DNA of 64,000 nucleotides from Chitinophaga sp. 180180018-3. GTDB taxonomy: Bacteria > Bacteroidota > Bacteroidia > Chitinophagales > Chitinophagaceae. Position 1 is the first letter of the stretch, and every line of letters starts with the position of its first letter. The notes beneath the pieces were generated by a model. It saw nothing but the letters and a program-made list of their open reading frames with translations, ran no database searches and was not told the DNA's origin. The stretch covers positions 6,448,001 through 6,512,000 of the forward strand of contig NZ_CP140772.1 of NCBI RefSeq assembly GCF_037893185.1, read 5' to 3'. Position numbers and translations under genes: made by a program. Of this stretch, positions 46,317 to 64,000 are shown one piece after another.

Positions 46317-49300
46317 TTAGAGTGATAGTTTAAGGCCAAAAGTGAATTTCGGCTGAGGCTTCATTCCCCCCATTGGATATTCCGGATCTTCTCCTGCATG
46401 ATTAGCCAGTATGGTGAACAAATTGTTGCCCTGTGCATATAGTTGCAGGCCGCCAACATGGAGCGCTTTCGCCAGACTGCGTTTCAGGTTGTAGGTGATA
46501 TTTACTTCCTGCATGCGTATATGTGAAGCATTTTCTACCAGGTAGCTCATGTAAGGATAGAAGCGATCCCAGAAATAAAATTTAGGCTCATTGTCATTCA
46601 TCGGCAGTGGCACTATTTTCATGGGATCGCCATTCATCACCTCATTCAGTTTTTTGTTAGGGAGTACCCGGCTACTCCATAATGTGGGGTAGTTGAAAGA
46701 CATCCTGTTGAAGACATGCCCGAATTTGCCCGTTATAATAAAGGACAGATCAAAGTCATAGATTTTGAATGAGTTCATTATTCCCAGTGTATAGGGCGCT
46801 ACCTGTGGTCCCATGGCCAACATATAATCCCTGCCATCTCCGGGTGTCCAACCTGTGAAATTATACTTGTCGCCTTTAGCACCTTTAACATAGGGTTGTT
46901 TATCGTATACGCCTGCATACTGGAAGCTCCAGAGTGTGCTCGCATCCTTTCCTTCCACATAAGCACCGGATCCGCCACTAAATAACGTATAGGCGGGGTA
47001 GTTAGCCACAAATAAACTCGTTATACGGTTACGGTTATACGAAAAATTAATATCCCCGCTCCAAACGATATCATTTTTCCTGATTGGCAGAGATGTACCT
47101 ATTGTCAGCTCAATACCGCGGTTATTCATGGAAGCGTTGTTCAGCCGCTGGGAAGTAGTACCGTTCACCGCTGGTATCGACAGTACGGCTATAAGATCGC
47201 GGCCGTTTTTGTTATACATATCGATTTTCCCTCTCAGCTTTCCGTTAAACAGCATGTAATCGGCGCCCAGATTCCAGGTGCCGGTTTTCTCCCAGCGTAA
47301 TGTAGGATTGCCATAGCTGGAGATAGATGCCTTGAAGTCCTGCGTATAAACATCAGGAGTGGCCGTGGTAGCGATAAGCGGACGAAATGCGGTAGACTTG
47401 TCCACGTTACCATTATACCCATAGGTCAGGCGCAGCGTGAGCCGGTCTATCCAGGTAAGCCTGGTCATAAAAGGCTCCTGTTGCAAACGCCAGGCTCCAC
47501 CTATAGACCAAAAGGGTGCAAACCGGTATTTCGGATCATCAGTGATCAGGTTAGAGGCATCTGTGCGGTAACTGCCCGAGAGGGTATATCTGTTGTTGAA
47601 AGTATAGGCTGCATTAGCATACAGGGAGAAATATCTCTCTGTTCTGTAGGAAAAAGTATTGGTATAGGCAAAAGTCTGATTATTGCCCATCCAGTTTTTA
47701 ATAGGATTAAACGTACCTCCGGGGCCATTGGGAAACGTTCCCAGGGTCAGTGTCTGATCGTTATAGCCGTAGGCATCCGGATTGCCGAAAGTTTGTGTAA
47801 CCAGATTATTGACCTCCGAGCCGGCGATCATATTTACCTCATGCTTACGGCCAAATGAGCGATTAAAGTTCACCTGGTTACGGAAGTTATAAGCTTCTGC
47901 CCTGGTACGGTTCTGTGTAAGGATACCGCCTTTAGGCAGGTTCAGGGTAATGGCATTGGTTGTCTGATCCCAGGCAGCTGCCGTGTTTACTTTATTTCTT
48001 ACGTAAAACGACTGATCGCTATACAGCCCGCGATTAAACGTGTTAAACAGCTCATACTGAATCCTGCTATCAAAAGAAATACCTTTTGCCAGCCTGAAGG
48101 TGAGCCCTGCCTGCATACGGGCGTTAAGTTGCTGGGCGGTAATATCCCTGCCGGCTATTTCCTGGATGGGATTGTAGGTCCAGTCGGAGTACGGGAATTT
48201 ACTCGTAGGTACCTTTCTTTGCAGGATGGGCCAGTAGTATTGACTGATATTGGTGTACGAGCCATCCGGATTCACCAGCATATCATAAGGCGACAGCCCC
48301 TGTATATCTGCCAGGGAAACACCGTTATTATGTTGTTCGTTATACTGCAACATGGCAGAGGCGTTGAAGTCGAGCCATTTAAACACATTGGCACTGCCGC
48401 GGTAGTTGAACATATAATTTTTGTCGTAGGTTCCTTTGAAGTTGGACTGGTTTTTCCCGAACAGCAGGGAAACCACGTTGCTCATGCGTGTGCTGCCACC
48501 ATAGAGCGTCAGGTTATACTGCTGATTTACGGGGTTCGACAGGAGATAGCGGGATATCTGTGAGCGGTTATCCTGTGTTTTTAGCTTGTTCAGGACAGCA
48601 TCGCGTTGCGCATCCGGCAGGAAGCCCAGATAATTTTCGCTGAGTGCCACGGAGGCCTGAGACCATTGGAATCCGACATTTGAGGCAAAGTCGCCTGAGT
48701 TGGTAAGTGCTCCCCAGCGGTTGAAAGTGAGTTTTTCGTATTCCACAGTTTCCGCAGAAGAAGCCAGGGGATTGACATAGCCCAGATCAAACTTGCTGCC
48801 GACACGGGTAAATGCAGAAAGCTCCACGCGCAGTGGCACTCCTCTTGCTGATTTTTTGGTAGTCACCACTATCACTCCATTAGCGGAACGTGCGCCCCAG
48901 ATGGAGGCTGCAGCAGCATCTTTCAGGATAGTAATGCTTTCCACATCGTTAGGATTGATAGAGTTAAAATCGCCCTGTACAGCGAATCCATCTACTACTA
49001 CCAGTGGGCTGGCATTGGCATATAAGCTGGTTTTACCCCTGATTTCGAAGGTAGGGTTTCCGTCTACATCCAATTTTGCCTGCATACCTGCCGTAGTACC
49101 AATAAGCCGTTGTGCAATATTGATGGCCGGTTTATCGAGCTGCTGCCTGCTAATAGCATCATAAGAGCCGGTAGCGCGCTCCCGGGAAATGGTCTGATAG
49201 CCGGTCGACACTACGACTACCTTGTCCAACAGCGCGGTCTTTACCTTCAGGACGATCGTCAGGAAGGTTTTCCCCTCTGGTTTTATTCTAACTGTTTCGT

Positions 49301-49865
49301 ACCCAACACTGCCTATAAACAGGGTCGTATGATCATCTACCTCATTCAACGAAAATTCACCTTTATCGTTGGTTACCGTACCCATCGCTTTTCCCTCCAC
49401 GCGTATGCTCACGCCTACGAGGGGTTCGCCACTGACATCAGTAACGCGGCCCCGCAGGGGATATGTTTCTAAGATCGGTGTGGTGAAATCAGGCAACAGC
49501 ATTCCCCTGCGCTTTATCACGATCAGGTGATCGGCGATACTGTAAGAGTACGGCAATCCCTGCAGGCATGCTTCAAGCGCCTGTTGCAGCGTTGCATTGT
49601 TCAGCCTGAGGTGATGTAATACGGTATTGTCAATCAGCCTGTTATCAGCAATGAAAGAATAGCCCGTCTGTTTTTTGATTTCGTTCAGAGCGTGGTGAAT
49701 GCTCAGTTTTTCTTCAATAATAGTTACACGTTGTGAATAGATCTTAGCGCTCAGATGTAAGCTGATTATGAGTAACAAGGATGTCAGCCGCATAATCTTC
49801 CAAATTAAAAATGGCAATAAAAAGCCGTTGCCCCGGGGGGCTTTTACATTAACATTGAAATACAT
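46317..49865 (-). CDS. STN-domain SusC/RagA-family TonB-dependent transporter
   Basis: TonB-dependent importer that also signals. After the signal sequence (IMRLTSLLLIISLHLSAKIYSQ) comes an STN domain (ERLSIHHALNEIKKQTGYSF-like; LNNATLQQALEACLQGLPYSY), which contacts the FecR anti-sigma in the periplasm. Then the regulatory-like domain (LRGRVTDVSGEPLVGVSIRVEG), the plug start KVVVVSTGYQTISRERATGSYD, SusC plug motifs (SPLVVVDGFAV, ILKDAAAASIWGARSANGVIVVTTK) and a full barrel. 1182 aa is normal for this subclass. The ATG at 49865 is used; 49793, right before the signal peptide, is an alternative. It follows sigma and FecR genes on the same strand. Confidence 0.96.
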   Translation of the reverse strand: MYFNVNVKAPRGNGFLLPFLIWKIMRLTSLLLIISLHLSAKIYSQRVTIIEEKLSIHHALNEIKKQTGYSFIADNRLIDNTVLHHLRLNNATLQQALEACLQGLPYSYSIADHLIVIKRRGMLLPDFTTPILETYPLRGRVTDVSGEPLVGVSIRVEGKAMGTVTNDKGEFSLNEVDDHTTLFIGSVGYETVRIKPEGKTFLTIVLKVKTALLDKVVVVSTGYQTISRERATGSYDAISRQQLDKPAINIAQRLIGTTAGMQAKLDVDGNPTFEIRGKTSLYANASPLVVVDGFAVQGDFNSINPNDVESITILKDAAAASIWGARSANGVIVVTTKKSARGVPLRVELSAFTRVGSKFDLGYVNPLASSAETVEYEKLTFNRWGALTNSGDFASNVGFQWSQASVALSENYLGFLPDAQRDAVLNKLKTQDNRSQISRYLLSNPVNQQYNLTLYGGSTRMSNVVSLLFGKNQSNFKGTYDKNYMFNYRGSANVFKWLDFNASAMLQYNEQHNNGVSLADIQGLSPYDMLVNPDGSYTNISQYYWPILQRKVPTSKFPYSDWTYNPIQEIAGRDITAQQLNARMQAGLTFRLAKGISFDSRIQYELFNTFNRGLYSDQSFYVRNKVNTAAAWDQTTNAITLNLPKGGILTQNRTRAEAYNFRNQVNFNRSFGRKHEVNMIAGSEVNNLVTQTFGNPDAYGYNDQTLTLGTFPNGPGGTFNPIKNWMGNNQTFAYTNTFSYRTERYFSLYANAAYTFNNRYTLSGSYRTDASNLITDDPKYRFAPFWSIGGAWRLQQEPFMTRLTWIDRLTLRLTYGYNGNVDKSTAFRPLIATTATPDVYTQDFKASISSYGNPTLRWEKTGTWNLGADYMLFNGKLRGKIDMYNKNGRDLIAVLSIPAVNGTTSQRLNNASMNNRGIELTIGTSLPIRKNDIVWSGDINFSYNRNRITSLFVANYPAYTLFSGGSGAYVEGKDASTLWSFQYAGVYDKQPYVKGAKGDKYNFTGWTPGDGRDYMLAMGPQVAPYTLGIMNSFKIYDFDLSFIITGKFGHVFNRMSFNYPTLWSSRVLPNKKLNEVMNGDPMKIVPLPMNDNEPKFYFWDRFYPYMSYLVENASHIRMQEVNITYNLKRSLAKALHVGGLQLYAQGNNLFTILANHAGEDPEYPMGGMKPQPKFTFGLKLSL

Positions 49866-50136
49866 AATTTTGGATTGTTCGGGTAGACTTTGAAAAAGCG
49901 ATAAAATTCTTAGGCGCCCGGATATTTGGCCGGGAGTGAGTAGTGATCACTTCCGGCTTTCCATTAGGACATACCGGTTAGTTAGCAGGAATTTTGAATC
50001 ATGCGAAACAATTTTTTGGTTGAATAAATAATCTCCGGGGGTGGTGAGGCGCCGGTTGGTTCTATTTAAGGACGTACAAATTTTCCAACAGCTATCTTGT
50101 TGTAATACTATCGTTATGGTTGGTTAATGACTCCTG
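49866..50136 (-). other. 271-nt gap between fecR and the STN-susC gene
   Basis: No open frame or RNA gene seen. It contains GTGATCAC (49947-49954) and partial GC-rich dyads. In ECF/FecR systems this gap normally holds the sigma-dependent promoter of the SusC gene; I could not identify its boxes. Confidence 0.4.
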
Positions 50137-51270
50137 TTATCTGGCAGAAACGATTAATGTCTGATGTTCCAGACGCGCATCGATCCCATAAACAGCCAGG
50201 GCCTTTATTACGCTGGACAGATAAACATCTTTATCGATGATCCCTACAAATCCAGTACCTGGCAAAGTGCCATTCACTTTTATTTTCACATCATACCAGC
50301 GTGCGATTTTGCGTAACAACGTGGCAACGTCCCCACTTTCCAGGGAAAGCTGCCCATTGGTCCAAACTATAGCATCTCCGGCATTTTCGGGCTGGCTCAG
50401 GATTACCTGCGTTTGTCCCTTGTTCACTTGTGCCAGCTGGCCGGGTCGCAACATGGTTCCGTTCACTTTTGCCAGGCCTTCCAGTAAGGTCGTTTTCATG
50501 ACAGGCTCATCTTCATATGCATTTACATTGAAGGCAGTACCGAGGTCTTCGATCACATGCCTGCCAACCCGCACTTTAAATGGCTGAGCTGCATTATGTA
50601 CTACCTTGAAGTATACTTCGCCGGTAATGTCTACCACCCTTTCTTTTCCTGCAAAACTCAGCGGGTAACGAATAGAGCTGGCAGCATTCAGCCATACTTC
50701 TGTACCGTCCGGCAACAACATCTTCCATTGCCTGCTGTTATCGGTAGTAATGGTATTGTATACTGGCTGATCCGATGTTCCTTCATAGCGTATAGCGCCA
50801 TTTTCTTTCACCACCTTTACCTTCCCCTGCATAGCCACTGTACCATTCGTGATGCTGTCTAACACAATCGAGCTGCCATCAGACAATTGAAGAACCGCAC
50901 CATTATGGCCGGGCGCCTTGTCGTGAGCAGCCAGCAGCACAGGTGCTGTTGGCTGATGACGCTGGTACATTCCTATCCCGATGAGCAGCAAAACTGCTGC
51001 AGCCACAGTACTCCATAATAATATACGCCGCGGTCGTACCGTTCTCATCCGCTGCCCCTGCTCTGCCCGTACCCGCTGCAGTAACCGGGCTTTCATCCGT
51101 TCCTGCAAATCATTCCTCTCGTTCAACGATACATCAGCATCGCTGTTTAATTCATCCAGGCGATCCAGATAGCTCTCCACCAGCCGGATTTCCGCCGGAG
51201 TGGCCTGTCCCGCTTCGTACTTCTTCAGTATGGATAATAAATGCTTCCGATGCCAGTCGGAAAAATACAT
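50137..51270 (-). CDS. FecR-family anti-sigma factor
   Basis: Inner-membrane protein that holds the ECF sigma factor until the STN domain of the loaded SusC signals. N-terminal cytosolic helices (LLSILKKYEAGQATPAEIRLVESYLDRLDE), one TM segment (ILLWSTVAAAVLLLIGIGMY), then a periplasmic FecR domain with LPDGTEVWLNAASSIRYPLSFAGKERVVDITGEVYFKV and HVIEDLGTAFNVNAYEDEP. The C-terminal DUF4974-type end is ARWYDVKIKVNG. I place the start at 51270 (MYFSDWHRKHLL); 51294 adds eight residues. It lies ~60 nt after the sigma gene. Confidence 0.94.
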   Translation of the reverse strand: MYFSDWHRKHLLSILKKYEAGQATPAEIRLVESYLDRLDELNSDADVSLNERNDLQERMKARLLQRVRAEQGQRMRTVRPRRILLWSTVAAAVLLLIGIGMYQRHQPTAPVLLAAHDKAPGHNGAVLQLSDGSSIVLDSITNGTVAMQGKVKVVKENGAIRYEGTSDQPVYNTITTDNSRQWKMLLPDGTEVWLNAASSIRYPLSFAGKERVVDITGEVYFKVVHNAAQPFKVRVGRHVIEDLGTAFNVNAYEDEPVMKTTLLEGLAKVNGTMLRPGQLAQVNKGQTQVILSQPENAGDAIVWTNGQLSLESGDVATLLRKIARWYDVKIKVNGTLPGTGFVGIIDKDVYLSSVIKALAVYGIDARLEHQTLIVSAR

Positions 51271-51331
51271 AGAACCACTTTTTAGTATAGTCACAGAAAA
51301 AATGCTTGTTTCCCGGAAAAGTGAAAAAAAA

Positions 51332-51910
51332 TTAAAAAATTTCTGAGAAAAGGAGATAGCATATTGCCAACAGGGCAGCCAGACGGGTACGCAGGTGGCG
51401 TAGCGACAGGCTCAGGTTATTTTGTATAGTTTTGGGAGACAGGTCCATGGAAACAGCTATCTCCTTAACAGACAACTCTTTAATATAGTGCTGAATAAAA
51501 ATATGTCGTTGGGTTTCCGGTAGCGTCCCTATCCAGGCTTCTATCAGGCTAATGAGATCTTTCTGCTTCAACAGCACATCTGCCTCATAGGGAGAATAAA
51601 GCAATGTTTCAAACAGATCAAAGAAAGCAGGTATTTTCTGACGGGTAACAAAATTAATGAGCCTGAAACGAACGGCCTGCTCAAGATATGCCGGTAAATG
51701 CCGGACATGTAGCTCTTTTCGTCGTTTCCAGATATCCATAAATATATCCTGTATAATTTCTTCGGCCTGCCCGGAGTCGGCCAGCTTGCGACAGGCAGAT
51801 CTGTAAAGTTGTTGCCAGTAGCGATCATAGATTTCCGCAAAAGCCGTTTCATTACTGCTTTTAAGCAGGTCAATCAGTTGCTCATCGGTATATTCCACAT
51901 ACGGACGCAT
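51332..51910 (-). CDS. ECF RNA polymerase sigma factor (FecI-like)
   Basis: A 192-residue sigma-70 of the extracytoplasmic class. Region 2: LLKSSNETAFAEIYDRYWQQLYRSACRKLADSGQAEEIIQDIFMDIWKRR. Region 4: LPETQRHIFIQHYIKELSVKEIAVSMDLSPKTIQNNLSLSLRHLR. It ends in a hydrophobic tail (LAALLAICYLLFSEIF). First gene of the minus-strand unit with fecR, susC, susD and the thioredoxin gene, which it likely turns on when the cognate substrate is bound outside. Confidence 0.95.
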   Translation of the reverse strand: MRPYVEYTDEQLIDLLKSSNETAFAEIYDRYWQQLYRSACRKLADSGQAEEIIQDIFMDIWKRRKELHVRHLPAYLEQAVRFRLINFVTRQKIPAFFDLFETLLYSPYEADVLLKQKDLISLIEAWIGTLPETQRHIFIQHYIKELSVKEIAVSMDLSPKTIQNNLSLSLRHLRTRLAALLAICYLLFSEIF

Positions 51911-53460: not shown

Positions 53461-53532
53461 CCATGGATAAAAATCAGTAATTAAAATTTGCAACAACGTA
53501 TCATTTTTAACAAATTGGACTATATTTGTTGA

Positions 53533-53895
53533 ATGGGGCAGCCAGCATATTCTACTGTACATAAATTGCTATCTTACTTTTTACTCGCCGTCATGTTATT
53601 CGTGCAGGCAGTGAAAGTCGGCCATACGCACGCAACAGCAGGATATCATGTCATTTCCGTAAAACCCGCTACCACAACCGGCGATATAATTCCGGTATTG
53701 ACAGATGGTAATGCCCATCATTGTAATATCTGTGATTATGAACTTACGAAAGATGCTGTGCCGATGCATAGTCTTTCTTTTCTTCCGTTACAGCAGCAGA
53801 TTGCTGTAAGATATAAATTCCTTCACACCCGGTTTCTTGCCGTTATTCACCAGGCGCAGACTAACAAAGGCCCGCCCGGTGCCCGACCTGTCTAA
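53533..53895 (+). CDS. Small secreted His/Cys-rich protein, 120 aa
   Basis: Signal peptide or anchor in residues 10-27 (LLSYFLLAVMLFVQAVKV), then a short periplasmic part with several His (VGHTHATAGYH) and the motif AHHCNICDYELTKDA. That motif, a pair of His and a C-x-x-C, could bind a metal ion. I have a sense of similar Bacteroidota proteins next to TonB receptors, but I know no assigned function. It is followed 39 nt later by an ABC exporter and a TonB receptor on the same strand, so a role in metal or metal-chelate traffic is a reasonable guess. A -7-like TATATTTG (53521-53528) lies only four bases before the ATG, so the mRNA may be nearly leaderless or the start may be annotated too early. 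Confidence 0.7.
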   Translation: MGQPAYSTVHKLLSYFLLAVMLFVQAVKVGHTHATAGYHVISVKPATTTGDIIPVLTDGNAHHCNICDYELTKDAVPMHSLSFLPLQQQIAVRYKFLHTRFLAVIHQAQTNKGPPGARPV

Positions 53896-53934: not shown

Positions 53935-54642
53935 ATGTTGCAGGCTATTGAGCTGACCTGTCGGTTTAGTCAGCATACGGCATTACATGCCTTAAACCTC
54001 GAAGTGGGCCGCGGGGAAGTGTTCTGTTTACTGGGGCCTAATGGCGCCGGAAAAACAACTACCATCAACTGTTTCCTGGGCTTCATAACGCCAACCCGCG
54101 GAGAAGCACGTGTAAATGATATACCAGTACAGCAACATCATGGGGAAACGAGGCGACATATTGCTTATATCCCTGAAACGGTAATGCTGTATCCTTATCT
54201 CAGCGGGCTGGAGAACCTGGAATTCTTTCATGCACTGACCGGCATCGCGTATTCAAAAGACGAGCTGGTGCAAATCCTGCAGGATGCAGGCCTGGCGCCG
54301 TCGGCTATTCACCGGCGCGTGCATACTTATTCGAAAGGGATGCGTCAGAAAGTAGGTATTGCTATAGCTGTGGCTAAGAACGCCGGTGCCTTGTTGCTTG
54401 ATGAGCCAACATCAGGACTGGATCCGGCTGCGAGCAACGAATTTTCTGCGCTGCTACAGCGCTTCAGCCGGGAGGGCAGAGCCGTGCTGATGGCTACGCA
54501 CGACCTTTACCGCGCCAGAGAAGTAGCTACCCGCATCGGTATCATGAAAGAAGGTCGCCTGCTCAAAGTAATGAATGCAGAAGAAGTAGATCATTACGCG
54601 TTGGAGAATATTTACATGGAACATATGACCACAGCTGAATAA
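53935..54642 (+). CDS. ABC transporter ATP-binding protein (ABC-2/NosF-like)
   Basis: Cytosolic ATPase of an exporter-type ABC system. Walker A LLGPNGAGKTTTIN, signature YSKGMRQKVGIAIA, Walker B GALLLDEPTSGLDP, H-loop MATHD. 235 aa, single domain. The closest general types are NosF, drug-resistance and lantibiotic-immunity (LanF) ATPases. The stop is followed after 3 nt by the start of a permease gene, and the run continues through a second permease and a TonB receptor. Confidence 0.93.
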   Translation: MLQAIELTCRFSQHTALHALNLEVGRGEVFCLLGPNGAGKTTTINCFLGFITPTRGEARVNDIPVQQHHGETRRHIAYIPETVMLYPYLSGLENLEFFHALTGIAYSKDELVQILQDAGLAPSAIHRRVHTYSKGMRQKVGIAIAVAKNAGALLLDEPTSGLDPAASNEFSALLQRFSREGRAVLMATHDLYRAREVATRIGIMKEGRLLKVMNAEEVDHYALENIYMEHMTTAE

Positions 54643-54645
54643 TCT

Positions 54646-56067
54646 ATGCTTAAAATAATTGTTGCCCGGGAGTGGCAAACCATCTGGCGCAGTAAAACCC
54701 TGACCGCCGGATGGCTGTTCCTCCTTATCATGCTTGGAATCGCATTTGCCGGAACACAGCAACAGGTAACCCGGTTAGCGCAGCAGCGAGCCATGGCCGA
54801 TTCGCTATTCCGTTATCAGTGGACACAACTGAAAGCGGAAAACCCGCACTCCGCTGCACATTTCGGCACTTATATTTACAAGCCGGTAAGTACATTGAGT
54901 GTATTTGATAATGGCATTCATCACTTCAGCGGCTATACGCTGCGTGTGGAGGCACATGTGCAACACATGCTGGCTGCAGCCCCTGCCACACCAGCCGATA
55001 ACTATCTGCGCTTCGGGGAATTCAGCATGGCCACTGTATTGCAGCTGTTCTTTCCATTGCTGATTATCTTTTTCTGCTATAACAGCTATGTGCAGGAAAG
55101 AGAACAAGGTACATTAAAAATACTGCTACTACAGGGAGCAGGCAACAGGCTGTTGCTTACCGGTAAAGCACTGTCTGGGTTATTGATCAGCAACGCTATG
55201 CTATTGGTATCTCTCGTCATATTCTTCTCTATACTATTCCTGTTCAATAAATTCCATAGCAACACAGATGTAACCGCTGCCTGCCTCCTGATGCTGGCTT
55301 ACGCAGTGTATGCCAGTATCCTGGTACTTTGCTGCATTATTATTTCCTTTCTTTCCAAAACCGGCAGACAGGCGTTGATTATACTGCTGGGGGCCTGGCT
55401 GGCTGGCGCAGTACTCATTCCCCGGATGGCTGCCACAGCCGGCAATATCCTGTATCCGCTTCCCTCCTGGTATGAATTGCAGGAAAGTATCAGCCGTGCA
55501 GAAAAATTCGGTATCGATGGCAAGGAACCAAGAGAGCAGCGACAGGAAAAACTAACGGCAGCATGGTTGAAAAAATATCATGTAAAAACGGTAAACGAAC
55601 TGCCTGTCAACTTTGACGCCATACAGATGCAGGCAGCAGAAGAATATATGCAACAGATCTACGACAGGCATATTGCAGCTATCGATAGCATTATCAGGCA
55701 TCAGAACAATATCATCGGTTACGCAGCTATACTCAATCCATATCTTGCCATACAACATGTATCCATGGGTCTATCGGGCAGCGATTATCAGCATCATGCA
55801 CATTTTTTTGCAGCTGCACGCCTGTATCGAAACAATTTCATACGACGGTTGAATGAGCAACTGGCTTATGGTGGCAGTAAAACCGGTGATCACAACTGGA
55901 AGGCTGATGCTGCTTTTTTCCGGAAGATGCCGGTTTTCAAATACCGGCCCCCATCCCTGCAAGCGGTGCTGCTGCAGCAATTACCTTACATAGCACTACT
56001 CATCGCATGGTTACTGGCCGGTTACCTTTTACTTATAAGACTATCCAGCAATGAATCAGTTATTTAA
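54646..56067 (+). CDS. ABC-2 type permease, first of a pair (DUF3526-like)
   Basis: Inner-membrane subunit with a helix near residue 25, a large periplasmic loop (~50-120), then a group of helices (LQLFFPLLIIFFCYNSYVQEREQGTLKILLLQG, MLLVSLVIFFSILFLF, ILVLCCIIISFLSKTGRQALIILLGAWLAGAVLI), a second soluble segment and a final helix (ALLIAWLLAGYLLLIRL). The QEREQGTL motif after the helix is typical of ABC-2 permeases that pair with NosF-like ATPases. Its 3' end overlaps the next gene by 17 nt, indicating translational coupling. The substrate is unknown. Confidence 0.88.
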   Translation: MLKIIVAREWQTIWRSKTLTAGWLFLLIMLGIAFAGTQQQVTRLAQQRAMADSLFRYQWTQLKAENPHSAAHFGTYIYKPVSTLSVFDNGIHHFSGYTLRVEAHVQHMLAAAPATPADNYLRFGEFSMATVLQLFFPLLIIFFCYNSYVQEREQGTLKILLLQGAGNRLLLTGKALSGLLISNAMLLVSLVIFFSILFLFNKFHSNTDVTAACLLMLAYAVYASILVLCCIIISFLSKTGRQALIILLGAWLAGAVLIPRMAATAGNILYPLPSWYELQESISRAEKFGIDGKEPREQRQEKLTAAWLKKYHVKTVNELPVNFDAIQMQAAEEYMQQIYDRHIAAIDSIIRHQNNIIGYAAILNPYLAIQHVSMGLSGSDYQHHAHFFAAARLYRNNFIRRLNEQLAYGGSKTGDHNWKADAAFFRKMPVFKYRPPSLQAVLLQQLPYIALLIAWLLAGYLLLIRLSSNESVI

Positions 56068-57499
56068 GCATATACAAACTACCCGCCAACTGTTCTGGTT
56101 TGAGTGGCGGTGGCTGACACGCACCGCTATGTTACCGGCGCTGGTAGCCGTTTTCATGGTGATTGGTATCTATGCGGTCATCTGTAGTAAAGGAGCGCTT
56201 CAGCAACGCATATCTGCCATCGACAGCCTCCGGCAGGGCCATCATCAGGCCTATACAAAGATGTATGCGCAGCTGATTGCTGATACTGCTACAACGAAGG
56301 CCAAAACGGACTATACGCTGGCTGTTGATCCGGCCATTGTGGAATATCGCCTGTACAGTACCGCTTATCATCCGCCGGCAGTGTTCTCGCTGTTCTCCAC
56401 AGGCATGAGCGATAATATCAGAAATTATTATCCCGTCAGGATCAATGCCGGTTACCTTGCTACTGAAGAGAGGGTGGCCAATCCTTTACTCCTGATGACC
56501 GGGAATTTCGATCTCGCATTTATACTGATATACCTGATACCACTGGCCGCTATTGGTTTGTGCTATAATCTGCTATCGCAGGAAAGGGAACAGGGTACGC
56601 TGCCGCTGATGATGATACAACGCGGAGATATTACCAGCGCTATGCTGATCAAATTGTTTGTGAGACATGGCCTGTTGTTATCGCTTATTGCATTGGTGAC
56701 GCTGGCAGGATTATTCCTGGCGCCTGCCGGCATCAGCTGGACATGGAAAGAACTGGCTGCCTGGATATTCATCTGTATTGCCTATACTGCTTTCTGGATG
56801 GGGCTCATCTGGTTTATCATTTCCTGGAAACAATCGTCTGCAGGCAATCTTATCACATTGATAGGCATGTGGCTGTTACTACTGATCGTTATTCCGGCGT
56901 TACTTCGTTTTACCGGCAACGACTATACGAATATTGATACAGCCGCCGTTAACGCTTCCAGGCAGCGTGAAATTGCCTGGGATACCTGGGATCTTCCGCA
57001 GCAACAGCTGCTGGATAGTTTCTACCTCCGCTATCCACAATACCGGAACGAGCAGGCCTACGACACCAGTGAGCGCAGCCTTCGGAGGGTAATGGCTTAT
57101 TATCATCTTACAGATGTACGGATGGATCGGGAACTGGAACCACAGGAAAAAGCATATCGTCAACAGGTACGGCATGTAGCTGCTGGTTACCTGGTTAACC
57201 CTGTCGTATATACGCAGACACTACTCAACAAAATTGCCCGTACTGATGTGACAGACTATGACTATTTCCATCAGCGCATGACCGATTTCCGGCAGCGCTG
57301 GAAAACATATTTCTACGATTTCAATTTTAACGACAGGAATTTCGACACCGCGGCCTATGCTACTATTCCTGCGTATTCGCCGGCGTTTGACACCGCGGCA
57401 ACAGTGATGGTGCGTAATGGTATTGTTTATCTGCTATTGCTCAGCTTTTGCGGACTTACTGCCGGAATAATTGTATTCAGAAAAAAAGTACATCTATAA
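56051..57499 (+). CDS. ABC-2 type permease, second of a pair (DUF3526-like)
   Basis: Paralogue of the preceding permease with the same plan: helix (MLPALVAVFMVIGIYAVI), periplasmic region (~45-150), helix bundle with LSQEREQGTLPLMMIQRG and AGNLITLIGMWLLLLIVIPALL, a soluble segment and a last helix (GIVYLLLLSFCGLTAGIIVF). The two probably form a heterodimeric channel. The TonB receptor gene begins 15 nt after its stop, tying the exporter to an outer-membrane port. Confidence 0.88.
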   Translation: MNQLFKHIQTTRQLFWFEWRWLTRTAMLPALVAVFMVIGIYAVICSKGALQQRISAIDSLRQGHHQAYTKMYAQLIADTATTKAKTDYTLAVDPAIVEYRLYSTAYHPPAVFSLFSTGMSDNIRNYYPVRINAGYLATEERVANPLLLMTGNFDLAFILIYLIPLAAIGLCYNLLSQEREQGTLPLMMIQRGDITSAMLIKLFVRHGLLLSLIALVTLAGLFLAPAGISWTWKELAAWIFICIAYTAFWMGLIWFIISWKQSSAGNLITLIGMWLLLLIVIPALLRFTGNDYTNIDTAAVNASRQREIAWDTWDLPQQQLLDSFYLRYPQYRNEQAYDTSERSLRRVMAYYHLTDVRMDRELEPQEKAYRQQVRHVAAGYLVNPVVYTQTLLNKIARTDVTDYDYFHQRMTDFRQRWKTYFYDFNFNDRNFDTAAYATIPAYSPAFDTAATVMVRNGIVYLLLLSFCGLTAGIIVFRKKVHL

Positions 57500-57514
57500 A
57501 ATAGTAACGATAAT

Positions 57515-59614
57515 ATGAAGAAAAGTTTCCTTATACTCATCTTATTAAATACCCTGTCTGTGGCGAGTATGGCGCAACACCAGGCGGACAGCCTTCGTAA
57601 AGCGCATCTCCGGGAAATAGAAATACAGGAGAAGAAAAAGAAACTCAAAGCAGACAGTATTTCTCCCACACTGAGAATAACAGCCCGATCACTGGAAATG
57701 CCGCAAAACATTACCGGTGTTAGCCAGGAGCTGATACAGCAACAGGGCGGGCTGGTGATGAAGGATATTGTCAGGAACGCTGCTGGCGTTCACATGGGCT
57801 ATAATTCATCTCTGTTCGACGCTTCCAATCTTGTTTTCATGCGGGGCTTTCCGGCACCCACCTACGTAAACGGGTTACTTCAGCGTACTACAATCGATGA
57901 TGCTGCAATTATCGAAAGTGTAGAATTTATCAAAGGGCCGGCTGGCTTCCTCGCTTCCGCAGGGGAGCCGGGCGGCGCGATGAATCTGAATACCAAAGTA
58001 CCGGCTGCGCGTATTCGCAATATAGAAATAGCCGGTGGCAGCTTTAACTTATGGCGCGGTGCAGCAGATCTGGGCAGTGCCATAAAATCCAAAGGGTTCT
58101 CTTACCGGCTGAACGCTGCATACCAGACTGGCGGATCTTTCCTCGACTTTCAGCAAACAAGGAAGTATGTAATCGCACCTGTGGTACAATACAACTTCAG
58201 TCCGCGGAGCATGATACTTACCGAATATAATCTCATTCGCATGACCTCCGATGGCGGGAGCGGCGTCACCAAAGTAGGCACAGATGAGGAAATACGAACT
58301 GCACGCGTACGGGACAACTATGGCGGAGATCCCGGATTGCCATTATCATACGGAGAAACCCAGTCGATACGGCTGTTATTCAATCATTCCTTTAACGATC
58401 GGTGGAAACTGGTGTTACAATCAAAATATACTTCCACTCCTGTAGATAGCTGGTACCTGTTATCCGACAATCAATCTCCCGTAAATTTTAATGCAGGAGA
58501 TACCACCCGGCGGCAACCGGTGAGAAGCTACTCCAAAGGAGAAGTAGTGGCAGCTCAGGCATATGTAAAGGGGATATTCAATACCGGTAAGCAATTGACG
58601 CACTATCTGCTCACAGGGGTAGATTATAATTACGCCAAAGACGTTTACAGTTACGCCACCGGCCGCTATAGCTTTTTCTTCGACCGCCGTCATCCCCGGT
58701 ATGGACTGAATACAGACAGTGCCAGAGTGCTGGACGAATACCCCGCCTCCAGGGACGAAAATAACTGGTGGTCCGTTTTTGCATACGACATGATACATCT
58801 GGGCCCACGGTGGCGCCTAAACGCCGGCGGCCGGTATACGATCAATACACGCACCGGCAAGGATCAACAGAATGCTTTTTCCCCACGCCTGGGCATTACA
58901 TGGCTGCTGCGCGATAACATCTCCATATATGCCTTATATGACCAGTCTTTTATTCCTCAGAACGGGCAAGACTTTTACAAGAATAATTTCAAGCCGCTGA
59001 AAGGTAATGATATTGAAATAGGTGCCAAGGGAGAATGGTGGAACAGGCGTCTTTCTACCAACGTAACTGTTTACCGGATCATCAAAAATAACCTGTTGGT
59101 ATCGGACATGGAGCATAGCCGTTACAGGCGACAGGTTGGGCAGGCCACCAGTACCGGCATAGAGGCAGATGTAATCGGGCAGGTAAGTAATCGTATATCC
59201 GTATCCGTTAATTATGCATACACCCATGCCGTAATCAGTAAGGATACTAAAAAAGAAAATGAAGGCACGGCGTTACCATTCATGCCACAGCAACTGATAA
59301 ATGCCTGGGTACAATACAGCATCCCGGTAAGCGAAACAGGAAGGATCAGGCTGAGCGCCGGTGAAACTACAGTCGTTAAACCTGGTACCTATACTCCAGG
59401 CACTTACCTTCCCGGTTATACGAAGTTTGACGCAGGAGCAGCATACGATGCGGGAAAATGGTATATACGGGTAGTAGCAGATAATATTACGAACAAGCAA
59501 TACTTTACCAGTGGCGATATTCTTGTTGGTTCCATCTTTCCGGATGTAAAAACCACCTATTATGTAGATGGCGCTCCGGCAAATTTCAAAATATTCCTGG
59601 GGATAAAACTATAG
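57515..59614 (+). CDS. TonB-dependent siderophore-type receptor (FhuA/FpvA-like)
   Basis: Outer-membrane active importer, 699 aa. Signal peptide 1-20 (SVASMAQ). There is no SusC-type beta domain; the plug starts soon after (ITARSLEMPQNITGVSQELIQQQGG, VRNAAGVHMGYNSSLFDASNLVFMRGFPAPTYVNGLL, VEFIKGPAGFLASAGEPGGAMNLNTK). The barrel shows the siderophore-receptor block FSPRLGITWLLRDNISIYALYDQSFIPQNG and ends FKIFLGIKL. It is encoded at the end of the ABC operon, 232 nt before the lanthipeptide precursor gene. Likely ligand: an iron or other metal chelate. A link with the peptide is possible but unproven. Confidence 0.93.
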   Translation: MKKSFLILILLNTLSVASMAQHQADSLRKAHLREIEIQEKKKKLKADSISPTLRITARSLEMPQNITGVSQELIQQQGGLVMKDIVRNAAGVHMGYNSSLFDASNLVFMRGFPAPTYVNGLLQRTTIDDAAIIESVEFIKGPAGFLASAGEPGGAMNLNTKVPAARIRNIEIAGGSFNLWRGAADLGSAIKSKGFSYRLNAAYQTGGSFLDFQQTRKYVIAPVVQYNFSPRSMILTEYNLIRMTSDGGSGVTKVGTDEEIRTARVRDNYGGDPGLPLSYGETQSIRLLFNHSFNDRWKLVLQSKYTSTPVDSWYLLSDNQSPVNFNAGDTTRRQPVRSYSKGEVVAAQAYVKGIFNTGKQLTHYLLTGVDYNYAKDVYSYATGRYSFFFDRRHPRYGLNTDSARVLDEYPASRDENNWWSVFAYDMIHLGPRWRLNAGGRYTINTRTGKDQQNAFSPRLGITWLLRDNISIYALYDQSFIPQNGQDFYKNNFKPLKGNDIEIGAKGEWWNRRLSTNVTVYRIIKNNLLVSDMEHSRYRRQVGQATSTGIEADVIGQVSNRISVSVNYAYTHAVISKDTKKENEGTALPFMPQQLINAWVQYSIPVSETGRIRLSAGETTVVKPGTYTPGTYLPGYTKFDAGAAYDAGKWYIRVVADNITNKQYFTSGDILVGSIFPDVKTTYYVDGAPANFKIFLGIKL

Positions 59615-59745
59615 CAATGATAAATTAGAGAAAGGCTACATACTGCATTTGTTCACATGCTTTGTTAACTATTAACAGACACGGAAAACCTTTGTCTATG
59701 CCAGATTACAGATTGCTTTTTCTCTCAAAAAAACTGCATTATTTT

Positions 59746-59791
59746 TTTGCAACATTGTTTCATTTTTGTATTTTTATAAGGATTGCAATCC
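59746..59791 (+). promoter_or_regulatory. Promoter and start-site palindrome of the lanthipeptide precursor gene
   Basis: TTTG (59746-59749), 19 nt, TATTTTTA (59769-59776; one mismatch to TAnnTTTG). A perfect 12-bp palindrome GGATTGCAATCC (59780-59791) sits where transcription would start, as expected for a repressor site. The leader of ~60 nt holds no other feature. Confidence 0.6.
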
Positions 59792-59846
59792 GGGGAAAGC
59801 CGAAGCCCTATTCAACTGTAGGCGATCATTTTTTAAATACTATTTT

Positions 59847-60032
59847 ATGAAAGAGAACAATTCAGACAAAATCAAACTGAGTCTCGACGATCTGAAGATC
59901 GAAAGTTTTGTTACCAGTATCGACAGTGAGATGAACATGCGCCTGGCAGGTGGTCTGGCCGGTCAGTCACATCCTACGCATACACAGCGTACAGATGATG
60001 AGCATCATTTCTGCACTACAGCAATTTGCTGA
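59847..60032 (+). CDS. Class I lanthipeptide precursor, pinensin-like, 61 aa
   Basis: Ribosomal precursor of a thioether-bridged peptide. Leader residues 1-36 include KIKLSLDDLKIESFVTSID and end MRLAGG, a double-Gly cleavage site. The pattern LDDLKxESFVTS is what I remember of pinensin-family leaders. The core holds S41, T44, T46, T49, T57, T58 and two Cys (C56, C61 at the very end), so at most two (methyl)lanthionine rings. Four His and the segment RTDDEHHF make it polar. Cleavage after GG leaves 25 residues; further trimming to Q40 leaves 22, the length I recall for pinensins. The start at 59847 was chosen because the upstream ATG (59766) lies on the -7 box. Modification enzymes are on the opposite strand at 61704-64000. 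Confidence 0.9.
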   Translation: MKENNSDKIKLSLDDLKIESFVTSIDSEMNMRLAGGLAGQSHPTHTQRTDDEHHFCTTAIC

Positions 60033-60056
60033 TAACAGTAAGCCATGTGAAAGAAA

Positions 60057-60092
60057 GGGTGTCTTCCAAAATGGGAGGCACCCTCTTCTTTT
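60057..60092 (+). terminator. Terminator of the lanthipeptide precursor gene
   Basis: GGGTGTCTTCC (60057-60067) pairs with GGGAGGCACCC (60073-60083) including two G-U pairs, followed by a T-rich tail. The precursor is therefore a one-gene transcript. Confidence 0.75.
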
Positions 60093-60110
60093 ACAACAAT
60101 TGCTCACTGC

Positions 60111-61295
60111 TTAATTAGAAGTGCCAGTCAGATAAGCGGCGTAATTCACGCTGCCGCTTATTGGCTGTACAGAGTTCGACAAAACAGGGCTTATGCCTGA
60201 CACCTGGTATTCAAGTTTGCTCAGATCAAATTTGAAAGTGTGTGCACCCGCAGAAAGATTTCCAACGTTTACCATAATAGGGCTAAGAGCACCACCCTGG
60301 CACCAGTTCCTCACAGGGTACCTCCAGGTGGAGTAAGGCCCTTTAGCACCATTGGGATTGATACCATCGTAATAAGAAGCCGGCGTGCAAAATATCCGGG
60401 TGCTTACACTTGTCTTCTGTACATTGTCAACTGACACTACATTGATACGTGACCTGCCTTCTTCGTTACCGTGGCCGGTAGTAAAAATAGTCAGCATCCC
60501 ATTGGTTACAGCTTTAGGAAGTGTCACCGTTGCTGTGAATATACCATTGGTAGTGTTGGAAGCGTTGATCACACTTCTTGCAAATTGTGTGGGATTATCA
60601 GCAGTACTTCCGGAAGTCACTAATGAAGCATCCAGCTGGAAACCAATGTTATCGCAGAAACTTAAGCCTGCAGCGGTTGGTTCGCCATAATCAACGTTGG
60701 CTCCTATCGTAACATATACCCAGGTGTCCTGGTCTGTGCGTCTTAATTGCTGAGCGAGCGCACTGAGATCGTAACTGTTATAGTTAATAGTATTAGGCGT
60801 TTGTGATTTCAGGAAATACGGCGTCATGATCCATCCAACCTTTGCCCGCTGATCCAGCAGCGAAGGCAGGCTGTCTTTCGATGTATTTAAAGGTGTATTG
60901 AGCACCGCTACTTCAAAGGTTCTGTCCCATCCATCATATTGCGCATACAGTTTTAAATTCAGCGTAACTGTGGAGCCAATTTGTGTTTTCTCTGTAGCTG
61001 TTAGTTTTCGTAAATACGTAAAACCATTGAGTTTAACAGCAGCACCAACAGGCGCAACATTTGGATCAGTACAGGAGGTCCATTGGCCGGTGCTGCTACC
61101 GGATGAATAAACCCCATAGAATCTGGCGCCATTTAACAAACTAATGGTACCTGCTAGCTCTGTCTGGGGCTTGTCTTTACCTTTTACTACAGGTTCGTTG
61201 CTGGTTTGATTTTTACTACAAGAGCTAAGTACAAACAAGGCTATAGTTGCAGCCTGAATTTGCCGGATAAACGGCGCTTTGATGTTCTGGATCAT
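60111..61295 (-). CDS. PNGase F-like lipoprotein
   Basis: Surface or periplasmic protein of 394 aa. Lipobox LFVLSSCSKN. The middle (RKLTATEKTQIGSTVTLNLKLYAQYDGWDRTFEVAVL) and the C-terminal part resemble the two jelly-roll domains of peptide-N-glycosidase F, an amidase that removes N-glycans from proteins. Marks are TIFTTGHGNEEGRSRI and the pair NPNGAKGPYSTW / YPVRNWCQGGALSP, which recall the NPxxxQGGTW...RxGWCPG pattern of that enzyme. I cannot map its catalytic acids, so activity is unproven. It lies between the lanthipeptide precursor (convergent) and the cyclase gene (same strand, ~410 nt upstream); a shared role is not evident. Confidence 0.65.
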   Translation of the reverse strand: MIQNIKAPFIRQIQAATIALFVLSSCSKNQTSNEPVVKGKDKPQTELAGTISLLNGARFYGVYSSGSSTGQWTSCTDPNVAPVGAAVKLNGFTYLRKLTATEKTQIGSTVTLNLKLYAQYDGWDRTFEVAVLNTPLNTSKDSLPSLLDQRAKVGWIMTPYFLKSQTPNTINYNSYDLSALAQQLRRTDQDTWVYVTIGANVDYGEPTAAGLSFCDNIGFQLDASLVTSGSTADNPTQFARSVINASNTTNGIFTATVTLPKAVTNGMLTIFTTGHGNEEGRSRINVVSVDNVQKTSVSTRIFCTPASYYDGINPNGAKGPYSTWRYPVRNWCQGGALSPIMVNVGNLSAGAHTFKFDLSKLEYQVSGISPVLSNSVQPISGSVNYAAYLTGTSN

Positions 61296-61703
61296 ACAAA
61301 CGGGTTTTTATGGAGTGATAAATATTCACTTACCTACTATGCAAAAGCATTTCCTTCACGGTAAGAGGCATTACCGTACCTGCAGCTACAAGCTGCCAAT
61401 AACCATAGATATTGGATACTTATCTGTAGTTAAAAACAGGGCATGACTTATCAATAATCATACTCATGGAAACATCAGTTTAATGTAATGAAAATGCGCT
61501 CTCTCGTTGTTGTTAAAGTTTGCTTTGCTTATTGCATTCAGAACGTGCACGGATTGGGCTAACGGTTAACGTTAATCGGATTGCTCTCATCTATTAATGC
61601 TCATGGCAGGTTCTGTTATGAAGATAATTAAAATAAGAAATGAAGCCAGATAGTTATTTCACAATTATCAATGCTTTTTTACCAGGCCAGATAAACTAAG
61701 ATA
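61296..61703. other. 408-nt intergenic region with short dyads
   Basis: No credible coding frame or RNA. Three dyads stand out: ACGGTAA-N6-TTACCGT (61358-61377), GCAGCT-N3-AGCTGC (61382-61396) and TTAACGTTAA (61566-61575). The first two lie 60-100 nt before the start of the PNGase F-like gene and may be its operator region. No clear terminator follows the cyclase gene. Confidence 0.5.
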
Positions 61704-63608
61704 TCAGTTGTTCCATATATCCGGAGCCTCCTTTCGCACGATAGTAACCCATCCGCTTTTCAGTAATTCCTTTACCTGGGCCGCTACAAGAGGAAAGATA
61801 TCAGCTGCTGATTGATCCGGGAAGTGCTTCCTGAGAAGATGTGCGGCTAATTCATTCAGGGTATATGGCTGCTCCGGCAGCAGGAGTATCAGCGCTGTGA
61901 GTTTTCCCACCGGCTGACTACTGATACCCGTTTCATGGCTATACCAGAGTGTATGAACAGGATAATCACATAATCGTACATGCGTGCTGGTTATAAATGC
62001 ATATTGCTGTTGATCGTTACCGGCAGCCAGGAATGCTTCCATTGCTTCATGCATCAGCTCTCTGCGCACCTGGTGGTACAACCAGCCTTTATGCTGCATC
62101 CAAAGTGATACGACCTGCTTTTCATTGCTGAAGTGGCTCGTTTCCCCGCTGATTGCGGGGTCTAGTTGTTGTTCTAATTGTTGTTGCAGGGAGATGATAT
62201 CCGCCGCCCGGAGTATATCAGTCTCCGTAACTGCGCCGCGCTGCATCAGGGCTGGTAATGTATGAGGGTAGTAGCGGTTAAAGATTCTTCTTTTTACGTC
62301 GACAATCGTATACGACTGCATAGCAGGTACTCCTCCCTCATAAGATAGAGAAGGGCACAATATAGATACATCTGCCGGCTGGCTAATAGTCCGCAGCATA
62401 AAGTACCCCACCCCCGCCAGCCCGGAGAGCAATCCGTAATCGGGATAACTGGTGGTAATACGGCTGTTATAGGTGCCATGTTTTTCGTTATAGCGTATGC
62501 CGGCCAGGGCAGTTTGTTGTGCGGCTGTTTGCAATTCAGGAATTTCCAAAGCAAATGCTGCTTCCAAAAAAAACATAGCTATTCCACCCCGGCCACTGCA
62601 CAGTGTGTAATCCATGCTTTCCGCACTGTTCAGGTCGGCCCTGCATCGGTCAACAGCCTGCCATACATGCTGCAGGTAAGATACATTACCGGTAGCACGG
62701 TATGCATACAAACGTGAAATACCTGATCCCGCAGCTCCATGTGCCCAGGCATTTACATTGCTCATCGTTGAGTAGAAACATGGCAATGGCCAATCCATCA
62801 GCTGCCAGCCATATTGCTCTTTCAACCGCTGCATTCGTTGTACTCCCACCCGCAAATCCATCCAGTTATTCCTCCGGGCATCATGGTACAACATTTCATA
62901 TCGCAATGCTTCTTCCCCCAGCCAGATCAGGCCTTCGCTATGAAAACAGCGCCCCACCTGCATGAGTGCGAACCCAATACCAGCGCTTCCATGGGAAAAA
63001 CAGGTAAGACTATCACACGCATGTTTAACGGGATCCCATTTCAAACCCTGCGGAGCAATACGCGCATTGTCTATGATTTGGTCGGATAAACGTTTCACAA
63101 GCGACAAATAGTATTCATTTTTCGTGTATACGTATAAGTGAGACAACAGCAACAGATTACCTGCATGGCCACTCAGCAGATCGTGTTGTATCACGCTTTC
63201 GAGAATACCGCTTTCGTAGCTGCGGGTCAGCTCCAGCGCATGTTGCAAATACCACTCCTCCCCCGTCGCCTCATGTAAGCGCATACACAGCCACAATACA
63301 GAGGTAGCTCCAGTATAAAACGGATAAAAAACAGGCTGTTGCACGTCGGCATGCTTCAGGAGCCGTGATGCCGCGCGCAACGCAAACGTAAGTATATCAG
63401 CTGCCGGTTTATATTGATGTATCTCCAGCAGCAAAAGAATAATGCCGGCATTTCCGTTGAAGAGATCTGTACTCTCCTGAGGCATACCGTCGGCGTCTTC
63501 CAGCGGAGTAACCCAATATGGGCCATGTACATCCTCTTTCGCCTGCTGCATCAGCGTTTCAGCAATACCGAATACGGTTGTTTCAATGCGTGCGTTGTCT
63601 GTGTTCAT
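61704..63608 (-). CDS. LanC-type lanthionine cyclase with atypical metal site and C-terminal extension
   Basis: Expected to join Cys thiols to dehydrated Ser/Thr of the precursor. Residues ~45-405 form the LanC (alpha/alpha)6 toroid with its repeated Gly motifs: DLFNGNAGI, D143LLSGHAG, CFSH206GSAGIG, NAW288AHGAAG, LC337SGRGG, LLSGLAGVGY. Against NisC, D143 and H206 match D141 and H212. The zinc ligands, however, are altered: the WCYG Cys is Ala (A289, with H290 next to it) and CHG is CSG (S338). Only C337 of the three is kept. The last ~200 residues are extra, with a winged-helix or PqqD-like stretch (LTALILLLPEQPYTLNELAA...VAAQVKELLKSGWVTI). The start overlaps the upstream gene by 26 nt. Confidence 0.85.
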   Translation of the reverse strand: MNTDNARIETTVFGIAETLMQQAKEDVHGPYWVTPLEDADGMPQESTDLFNGNAGIILLLLEIHQYKPAADILTFALRAASRLLKHADVQQPVFYPFYTGATSVLWLCMRLHEATGEEWYLQHALELTRSYESGILESVIQHDLLSGHAGNLLLLSHLYVYTKNEYYLSLVKRLSDQIIDNARIAPQGLKWDPVKHACDSLTCFSHGSAGIGFALMQVGRCFHSEGLIWLGEEALRYEMLYHDARRNNWMDLRVGVQRMQRLKEQYGWQLMDWPLPCFYSTMSNVNAWAHGAAGSGISRLYAYRATGNVSYLQHVWQAVDRCRADLNSAESMDYTLCSGRGGIAMFFLEAAFALEIPELQTAAQQTALAGIRYNEKHGTYNSRITTSYPDYGLLSGLAGVGYFMLRTISQPADVSILCPSLSYEGGVPAMQSYTIVDVKRRIFNRYYPHTLPALMQRGAVTETDILRAADIISLQQQLEQQLDPAISGETSHFSNEKQVVSLWMQHKGWLYHQVRRELMHEAMEAFLAAGNDQQQYAFITSTHVRLCDYPVHTLWYSHETGISSQPVGKLTALILLLPEQPYTLNELAAHLLRKHFPDQSAADIFPLVAAQVKELLKSGWVTIVRKEAPDIWNN

Positions 63609-64000
63609 AAATATGTTGCATACATTTCAGTGTAAAGCATACCAGGTAAGATTCTTCCGGGTTAGGAATACCAAGCCGGTTATGGGTCATGTGAAGCATG
63701 CTGCCTATTACTCCCTGCATTTCATCAGACGTCAATGCGGCAAGCCGGTATTTCTGAAACACACGCTGCTGGCCAGCTGCAAATAATTGTAGCTGCCGCT
63801 CCGCCATTCCCGACGTTAGCGCCACCCAAAGCGCTGCTATACCGGGCTCCAGTATCAATGCATACTGACGGTACATGTTTTCCATATGCTTAAACATTGT
63901 ATTGATATCATTTCCACTTTGCATCCGCGGTAACCACCGGCGGATGAATTGTTCGCAGATATGCTCGACAGTGGCCCTATCTTCCTGCAAAGCATGGAAC
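63583..64000 (-). CDS. LanB-type elimination-domain protein, C-terminal part (cut by window edge)
   Basis: The visible ~138 residues match the end of the SpaB_C/thiopeptide-type domain, which eliminates glutamate from glutamylated Ser/Thr to form dehydro residues. The telling segment is MQGVIGSMLHMTHNRLGIPNPEES, similar to the conserved (H)MxxNRLxG near the C-terminus of LanB enzymes. The frame continues past base 64000, so the TTG at 63990 is not a credible start. Whether the glutamylation domain is fused or separate cannot be seen; pinensin-type clusters, as I recall, have a split LanB. It overlaps the cyclase start by 26 nt, so the two are translated together. Confidence 0.72.
   Translation of the reverse strand, partial: FHALQEDRATVEHICEQFIRRWLPRMQSGNDINTMFKHMENMYRQYALILEPGIAALWVALTSGMAERQLQLFAAGQQRVFQKYRLAALTSDEMQGVIGSMLHMTHNRLGIPNPEESYLVCFTLKCMQHIYEHRQRTH

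Follow-up and report, generated by a model that had tools for sequence, protein, structure and literature searches.

A pinensin-type lanthipeptide cluster of Chitinophaga as a candidate zinc-starvation system

The 64,000-nucleotide stretch of Chitinophaga sp. 180180018-3 analysed here (G000:C1:6448001-6512000, in a genome of one 8.13-Mb contig; hereafter the window) carries at its right end, and continuing past it, a complete class I lanthipeptide cluster of the pinensin type, which we propose, with somewhat more confidence than doubt, to work as a zinc-starvation system. Sequence comparison establishes the family of the locus, its gene set, the loss of zinc ligands from its cyclase, the linkage of a TonB-dependent receptor to the cluster, and dyads shared with genes elsewhere. 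Each of these strands alone is suggestive; it is their combination that makes the case for zinc starvation.

We propose that when zinc is low a Zur-like repressor of the Fur family would leave operators of the form TTGCAAC-N3-GTTGCAA at the operon that begins with a small gene we call c8, at the precursor gene pinA and at the exporter gene pinT. The precursor would then be dehydrated by a split LanB, its rings would be closed without zinc by a LanC cyclase (PinC) that lacks the zinc site, and the product, cut at a Gly-Gly and exported by a C39-ABC protein, would be a secreted, acidic, His-rich two-ring peptide that binds zinc or a similar metal. The metal-loaded peptide would re-enter through a dedicated TonB receptor, and an ABC-2/DUF3526 transporter may serve its uptake or release.

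Results

The locus belongs to the pinensin family

A reading of the sequence alone had predicted here a 61-residue precursor with a leader, a double Gly and a two-Cys core rich in His and acidic residues, facing a LanC cyclase and a LanB elimination protein. The precursor stands: the pinA product (leader MKENNSDKIKLSLDDLKIESFVTSIDSEMNMRLAGG, core LAGQSHPTHTQRTDDEHHFCTTAIC) has all of these features and matches NF038180, the NCBIfam pinensin leader model, at 46.4 bits against a cut-off of 24, which, with matches in 25 of 79 genus genomes, means that the call is not a chance one. The start codon is our choice, the open-reading-frame listing offering a longer frame that begins at 59766. Both enzymes are also as predicted (PF05147 and PF14028) and are encoded convergently with pinA; they do not face it directly, since a separate gene resembling peptide-N-glycosidase F (PNGase F) intervenes. 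By tblastn that gene has no match in any of the 24 genus loci compared with the window's, and we set it aside as a cluster member. Past position 64,000, where further genes had been anticipated, the LanB elimination gene runs on to the window equivalent of 64446 (287 residues in all), and the contig encodes a LanB glutamylation protein (PF04738) and a C39 peptidase/ABC exporter. The locus accordingly has the pinensin-type enzyme set, with LanB split over two proteins and a LanC. On the same strand upstream of pinA lie c8, an ABC ATPase, two DUF3526 permeases and a TonB-dependent receptor (Table 1).

Other Chitinophaga genomes likewise have precursor homologs with a LanC gene next to them, and Chitinophaga sp. 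YR627 has a cluster with the same gene order as the window's. On the leader match, the full enzyme set and this cluster of like layout, the family membership first proposed is as good as certain. The YR627 precursor reads LAGQ-SHPTHTVATDDEGHLCTTIICA, and the 22 residues of its core from Ser onward match pinensin A in length. That core is described as identical to pinensin (PMC9248904). If YR627 is taken as pinensin-identical, the window peptide keeps 20 of 25 core residues and changes five (QRTDDEHHFCTTAIC against VATDDEGHLCTTIICA), while it shares with pinensins A and B of Chitinophaga pinensis DSM 28390 the leader family, the core plan (H/E)PTHT..TD..H..C...C, the split LanB and the LanC. 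Pinensins are described as two-component, with two methyllanthionine rings in the product (PMC13060382), whereas here each matching genus genome yields one precursor match.

Of the 25 genus genomes that NF038180 matches, 24 have a pinensin-type core. Among 244 genomes of the family it gives three matches, all in the genus Chitinophaga, and among 395 genomes of the class seven, six of them above the cut-off, with the window's genome among them. A second collection holds 36 named loci from Chitinophaga, [Flexibacter] sp. ATCC 35208, Pedobacter, Sphingobacterium, Sinomicrobium and a Sphingobacteriaceae metagenome-assembled genome. A scan of genome contigs with the LanC as query gave no confirmed relative. 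An alignment of 22 precursors has H42, T44, H45, T46, T49, D50, C56 and C61 invariant, and all 30 distinct pinensin-type cores (drawn from 59 loci, some genomes having been fetched twice) contain THT, TD and a later His, with three or four His, exactly two Cys, 2-8 Asp/Glu and at most one Lys/Arg. Nine sister cores, of other than the pinensin type, contain 0-2 His and 0-9 Cys; they come from the 26 loci L052-L077, in which ten precursors were parsed, one of them pinensin-type (L055). The pinensin-type counts exclude G048 (L004/L028), whose NF038180 leader precedes a different core, and the core and LanC counts exclude L146, in which pinA is broken. This last locus belongs to C. pinensis YS-16 (G037, L109/L146), whose cluster is decayed in both pinA and the receptor. 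Chitinocin was considered as a relative and dropped, its paper stating that its sequence could not be determined.

The pinensin cyclases have lost their zinc ligands

The zinc ligands of NisC are Cys284, Cys330 and His331 (PMC10604976). Ala289, Cys337 and Ser338 occupy these positions in PinC, and in an alignment to the solved LicM2 and LanCL1 the canonical W-C-HG and L-C-H-G motifs become W-A-HG and L-C-S-G, so that PinC lacks the Cys, Cys-His set of zinc-dependent LanC enzymes. WAHG and LCSG recur in 24 of 24 genus loci. In the second set of 36 LanCs (35 named loci and the window) WAHG is universal, the His is replaced by Ser in 35 and Thr in one, and the remaining Cys is Val in 11. Over 46 distinct pinensin-type LanCs (24 genus loci and 22 of other families), the first Cys and the His are gone in all 46 and all three ligands in 11; the 22 of other families all read WAHG, and in 11 of these the second Cys is gone too. 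Asp143, His206, Arg253 and His290 are invariant in all 36 aligned LanCs.

The sister clusters differ. All four LanCs encoded no more than 10 kb from a sister precursor, whose core is of another type, keep WCHG/LCHG (L156-L159, from G363, G665, G346 and G048), and six further aligned LanCs of sister genomes (L154, L155, L174, L176, L177 and L181) retain Cys/Cys-His or Cys/Cys-Cys. The sister-cluster count omits L181, a canonical LanC from G363 that has no listed precursor nearer than 170 kb on its contig; L183 did not align and was left out. In a FastTree phylogeny the canonical LanCs form one clan (support 0.993) and the triple-loss LanCs another (1.000).

The predicted structure of PinC is that of a LanC: its AlphaFold model (pTM 0.89), used alone as a Foldseek query, matches LanCL2 (2.6e-11) and NisC (1.3e-7), as well as LicM2, LanCL1, MadC and ThurKC. 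Over the 634 residues PF05147 is the sole Pfam domain above cut-off, no fused kinase/lyase of class III (LanKC) was found, and the closest NCBIfam model is LanM. A PqqD/RRE domain at the C-terminus was rejected, 1 of 13 members matching it and that below cut-off (E 0.0086); in length PinC resembles the sister LanCs (658-678 residues).

We have little doubt, from these alignments, that the zinc ligands of the pinensin-clade LanCs are truly lost. An enzyme without the zinc site would work without zinc, and metal-free catalysis by PinC is very probable. LanC folds without zinc ligands are described in ThurKC, reported to be metal-independent (PMC10604976), and LanMbC (PMC10676384); class III is described as the zinc-free kind of cyclase (PMC7296275, PMC12328550), and some LanM fusions carry a cyclase of the class III type (PMC10676384). 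In ThurKC and LanMbC the cyclase is joined to kinase/lyase domains or to domains of the LanM type, whereas PinC stands alone, with Ala/Cys-or-Val/Ser at the ligand positions. The accessible literature yielded no report of ligand loss for a pinensin or another class I LanC, and that on pinensins no link to zinc.

A dedicated receptor and an ABC-2 transporter accompany the cluster

A search of the 79 genus genomes with the window's receptor, in which at most 14 candidates per genome were scored, clearly separates 24 intact copies, all scoring at least 548 bits, from the broken copy of G037 (323 bits) and from paralogs, none of which exceeds 285 bits. Inside pinensin-type clusters lie 23 of the 24 intact receptors, 18 directly before pinA and five beyond pinT. 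The receptor is present in 23 of the 24 pinensin-type genus genomes against one intact and one broken copy in the 55 others (Fisher p 1.2e-17, kinship uncorrected). All 22 genomes of other families have it beside the cluster and adjacent to the second permease, a placement taken from coordinates just past the fetched stretch and read directly in three. The intact copy among the 55 others belongs to G039, which also has the two permeases (L108:6996-12107), behind two one-mismatch dyads; no precursor or LanB/LanC was found in the 20 kb read there, suggesting a remnant for orphan uptake or resistance. In G046 the region upstream of pinA (L049:5200-7500) holds pieces of a transposase and of a group II intron-type reverse transcriptase.

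The ABC-2 ATPase is 71-79% identical to its homologs in 17 other type I clusters. DUF3526 is found in the window's genome in the two cluster permeases only (E up to 0.001), and among 14 control genomes in one, that of Caulobacter vibrioides. In Caulobacter, Zur represses a TonB receptor (znuK) and an ABC-2 ATPase with two ABC-2 permeases (znuGHI) (PMC4176598), and the DUF3526 match in C. vibrioides would correspond to znuH/I. The pinensin cluster has the same combination of receptor, ATPase and two permeases as C. crescentus znuK/znuGHI; it is unlike that system in its operator, which in Caulobacter is of the TGTTAT-N3-ATAACA type, and in its peptide biosynthesis, of which the accessible part of the paper makes no mention.

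A shared dyad is a candidate Zur-type operator

Comparison of the regions upstream of pinA brought out the dyad TTGCAAC-N3-GTTGCAA. At pinA it is exact in 20 of the 22 loci outside Chitinophaga and has one mismatch in the other two, and a degenerate copy (two mismatches in the window) occurs in 8 of the 25 other loci. At c8, 15 of 16 regions hold it with three mismatches or fewer; at pinT, 20 of 22 Chitinophaga loci do, 17 of them with one mismatch, L045 and L047 being omitted because their stretches end before pinT. In the other families together with L153, 21 of 23 pinT regions reach two mismatches, over a wider stretch and with no null. Three mismatches are reached at 0 of 85 starts of the cyclase, TonB receptor, LanB glutamylation and LanB elimination genes and in 141 of 5000 stretches drawn at random from the same loci, true sites included, and the four sister stretches (two of them overlapping) have no dyad with two mismatches or fewer. 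Genome-wide, nine Chitinophaga genomes have 3-12 dyads with at most one mismatch against 0-1 in a reversed control.

The window's genome has one exact dyad, flanked by SCO1 and a Fur-family gene to one side and by MerC and a CobW/COG0523 GTPase to the other. This GTPase scores 553 bits with ZigA, a zinc metallochaperone GTPase (cut-off 600), and that of G035 scores 573; GTPases of the CobW/COG0523 type have been linked to Zur sites (PMC2770081). We chose 24 further dyad regions in 10 genomes and read them by eye, checking L228, L240 and L224 by profile: a CobW/COG0523 GTPase adjoins the dyad in four, a MerC-like gene in five and an alkaline phosphatase-like gene in three, with small His/Cys proteins and TonB receptors turning up repeatedly. 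We do not count as a cluster member the Fur-family gene adjoining pinA, since it was found in a single species (L152 and L187 being one locus). We read the dyad as a predicted Zur-type operator and regard control of the cluster by zinc as probable.

Discussion

Secreted or exported metal ligands include methanobactin, the bufferins and the opine zincophores, and those used for import have a TonB receptor, as this cluster does; to our knowledge, none of them is a lanthipeptide. The His and acidic residues of the pinensin core may bind metal, as the zinc-less cyclase, the TonB receptor and the shared dyads indirectly suggest, and we consider the case for the product being a zincophore evenly balanced. 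The wider proposal is poised in the same way: that pinensins would be the first lanthipeptide zincophores, controlled by Zur, cyclised by a zinc-free class I LanC, recovered through TonB and ABC-2 proteins, and antifungal at least in part by zinc capture. Were it true, zinc acquisition would be the physiological role of an antifungal family of class I lanthipeptides, and LanC chemistry would have a natural example of class I cyclisation without zinc. Expression of a metal-free cyclase under zinc starvation would also explain why the ligands were lost in the pinensin clade and not in the sister clades. The zinc-independent paralogs PyrC, HemB2 and DksA resemble PinC in lying behind putative Zur sites and lacking the zinc-binding residues of their relatives (PMC2770081); PinC differs in being its cluster's only cyclase rather than a backup copy, and in belonging to secondary metabolism.

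Several observations weigh against the zinc-starvation proposal. No site better than four mismatches precedes pinA in 17 of 47 loci, all of the Chitinophaga set, and in these the regulatory argument rests on the c8 operator. The window's own operators are degenerate (two and three mismatches), and its five dyads within three mismatches, against 4.4 expected, are at chance level. In type I clusters of Chitinophaga, most pinT sites have one dyad half that doubles as the start-codon region (ATGTTTCAA, Met-Phe-Gln, ATG TTT CAA). Six non-Chitinophaga genomes have 1-4 dyads within one mismatch against 0-2 in the reversed control, about 7 of the 24 dyad regions have no evident metal link, and the Fur-family protein at the exact dyad, whose best NCBIfam match is Zur, reaches 36.8 bits, far below the cut-off of 167. 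The first core His is often Glu outside Chitinophaga, as in most Pedobacter and Sphingobacterium cores, and G046 has a pinensin-type cluster with no receptor.

What the proposal chiefly fails to predict, and what also counts against it, is the reported action on fungi: pinensins disrupt membrane integrity, at low-micromolar concentrations (PMC13060382), and they were discovered as antifungals (PMC6958371). The locus might be an ordinary pinensin antifungal cluster, with ABC-2 proteins providing LanFEG-like self-protection, a TonB receptor re-importing or sensing the peptide, and a dyad through which metal serves only as a competition cue. The ATPase does match the lantibiotic-protection family TIGR03740 (135 bits, cut-off 310), and G039, with receptor and permeases and no precursor or biosynthetic enzymes, looks as a resistance remnant would. 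This account leaves unexplained the loss of the cyclase zinc site in the pinensin clade and not in its sisters, and the operators common to ZigA-like and Fur-family genes; and typical membrane-active peptides are cationic, unlike the acidic, Lys/Arg-poor pinensin-type cores. We consider it unlikely, and still less likely that the peptide is a metallophore for copper, nickel or iron under a Fur-family regulator other than Zur. Among solved structures the receptor comes closest to siderophore receptors and to the metal-pseudopaline receptor CntO, the SCO1 and MerC genes at the same divergent operator as the Fur-family gene could point to another metal, a further difficulty for zinc, and the Fur-family gene falls under every equivalog cut-off; yet CobW/COG0523-type GTPases stand behind the dyad in several genomes, two of them with the ZigA scores given above, Zur is the best of the weak regulator matches, and the loss of the cyclase zinc site points to zinc.

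It is very improbable that PinC is degenerate, with the rings of the peptide being closed by another LanC in trans or non-enzymatically. Canonical LanCs do exist elsewhere in several Chitinophaga genomes (L188 in YR627, with WCYG/LCHG), but a PF05147 search of Pedobacter mendelii (G725) finds one place, the pinensin LanC. The window's genome has two other LanC-like places, one kinase-fused and one behind an apparent glycosyltransferase gene, in neither of which a pattern search found the canonical Cys/Cys-His motif. Conservation of the four invariant residues in every aligned pinensin LanC likewise counts against this reading.

Other features of the region

The 5' untranslated region (5'-UTR) of pinA contains an element kept across Chitinophaga, Pedobacter, Sphingobacterium and Sinomicrobium, for which covariation lends modest support to a pseudoknot. 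In an alignment (A3) that includes 33 of the 36 distinct 5'-UTR stretches, three pairs of the pseudoknot have two-sided changes, a number equalled in 10 of 500 shuffles; its covariation score is equalled by 85 of 500 and its further pair types by 452 of 500. A model of the element, with at most 150 candidates per genome scored, has one hit in each of nine pinA genomes (one pinA being broken) and none in seven genomes without a pinensin-type pinA. Because the model was built from mostly the same loci, its hits at pinA are no independent test, and the absence of hits elsewhere is the only new information it gives. A known riboswitch was rejected: Rfam gave no match over 57500-64000 with E up to 1, and in L131 nothing but weak, implausible matches.

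Table 1. Features of the cluster; positions beyond 64000 are window equivalents past its right edge
Feature	Position	Strand	Remarks
Candidate Zur-type operator ahead of the c8 operon	53488..53504	+	TTGCAACAACGTATCAT; 3 mismatches
c8, small protein	53533..53895	+	120 aa; first gene of operon
ABC-2 type ATPase	53935..54642	+	PF00005 101.6 bits
ABC-2 permease 1 (DUF3526)	54646..56067	+	PF12040 92.5 bits
ABC-2 permease 2 (DUF3526)	56051..57499	+	PF12040 66.4 bits
TonB-dependent siderophore-receptor-type outer-membrane protein	57515..59614	+	TIGR01783 254.2 bits, cut-off 223.5
Candidate Zur-type operator ahead of pinA	59747..59763	+	TTGCAACATTGTTTCAT; 2 mismatches
Conserved pinA 5'-UTR element	59783..59827	+	pseudoknot-like; GGGG/CCCC interleaved with GCC/GGC
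pinA, pinensin-type precursor	59847..60032	+	61 aa; NF038180 46.4 bits, curated cut-off 24
PNGase F C-domain protein	60111-61295	-	between pinA and pinC
pinC, LanC cyclase	61704..63608	-	634 aa; PF05147 145.5 bits
Split LanB, elimination protein	63583..64000	-	cut by window edge; PF14028 130.1 bits
LanB glutamylation protein	64450-67104		884 aa; PF04738
pinT, C39 peptidase/ABC exporter	67129-69378		749 aa
Dyad at pinT	69331-69347		

The c8 protein has one hydrophobic stretch, an H..C.ICDY motif and GPP near its end. NCBIfam yields nothing for it up to E 0.01, and its homologs have no Pfam match above cut-off, one of them grazing DUF2946 (E 0.13); it is possibly a member of a metal-binding family without a name. 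Look-alikes of c8 follow the same dyad elsewhere. Further to the left, on the minus strand at 44778-51910, are open reading frames that by eye resemble a SusC/SusD pair with a FecR-type anti-sigma factor and an ECF sigma factor.

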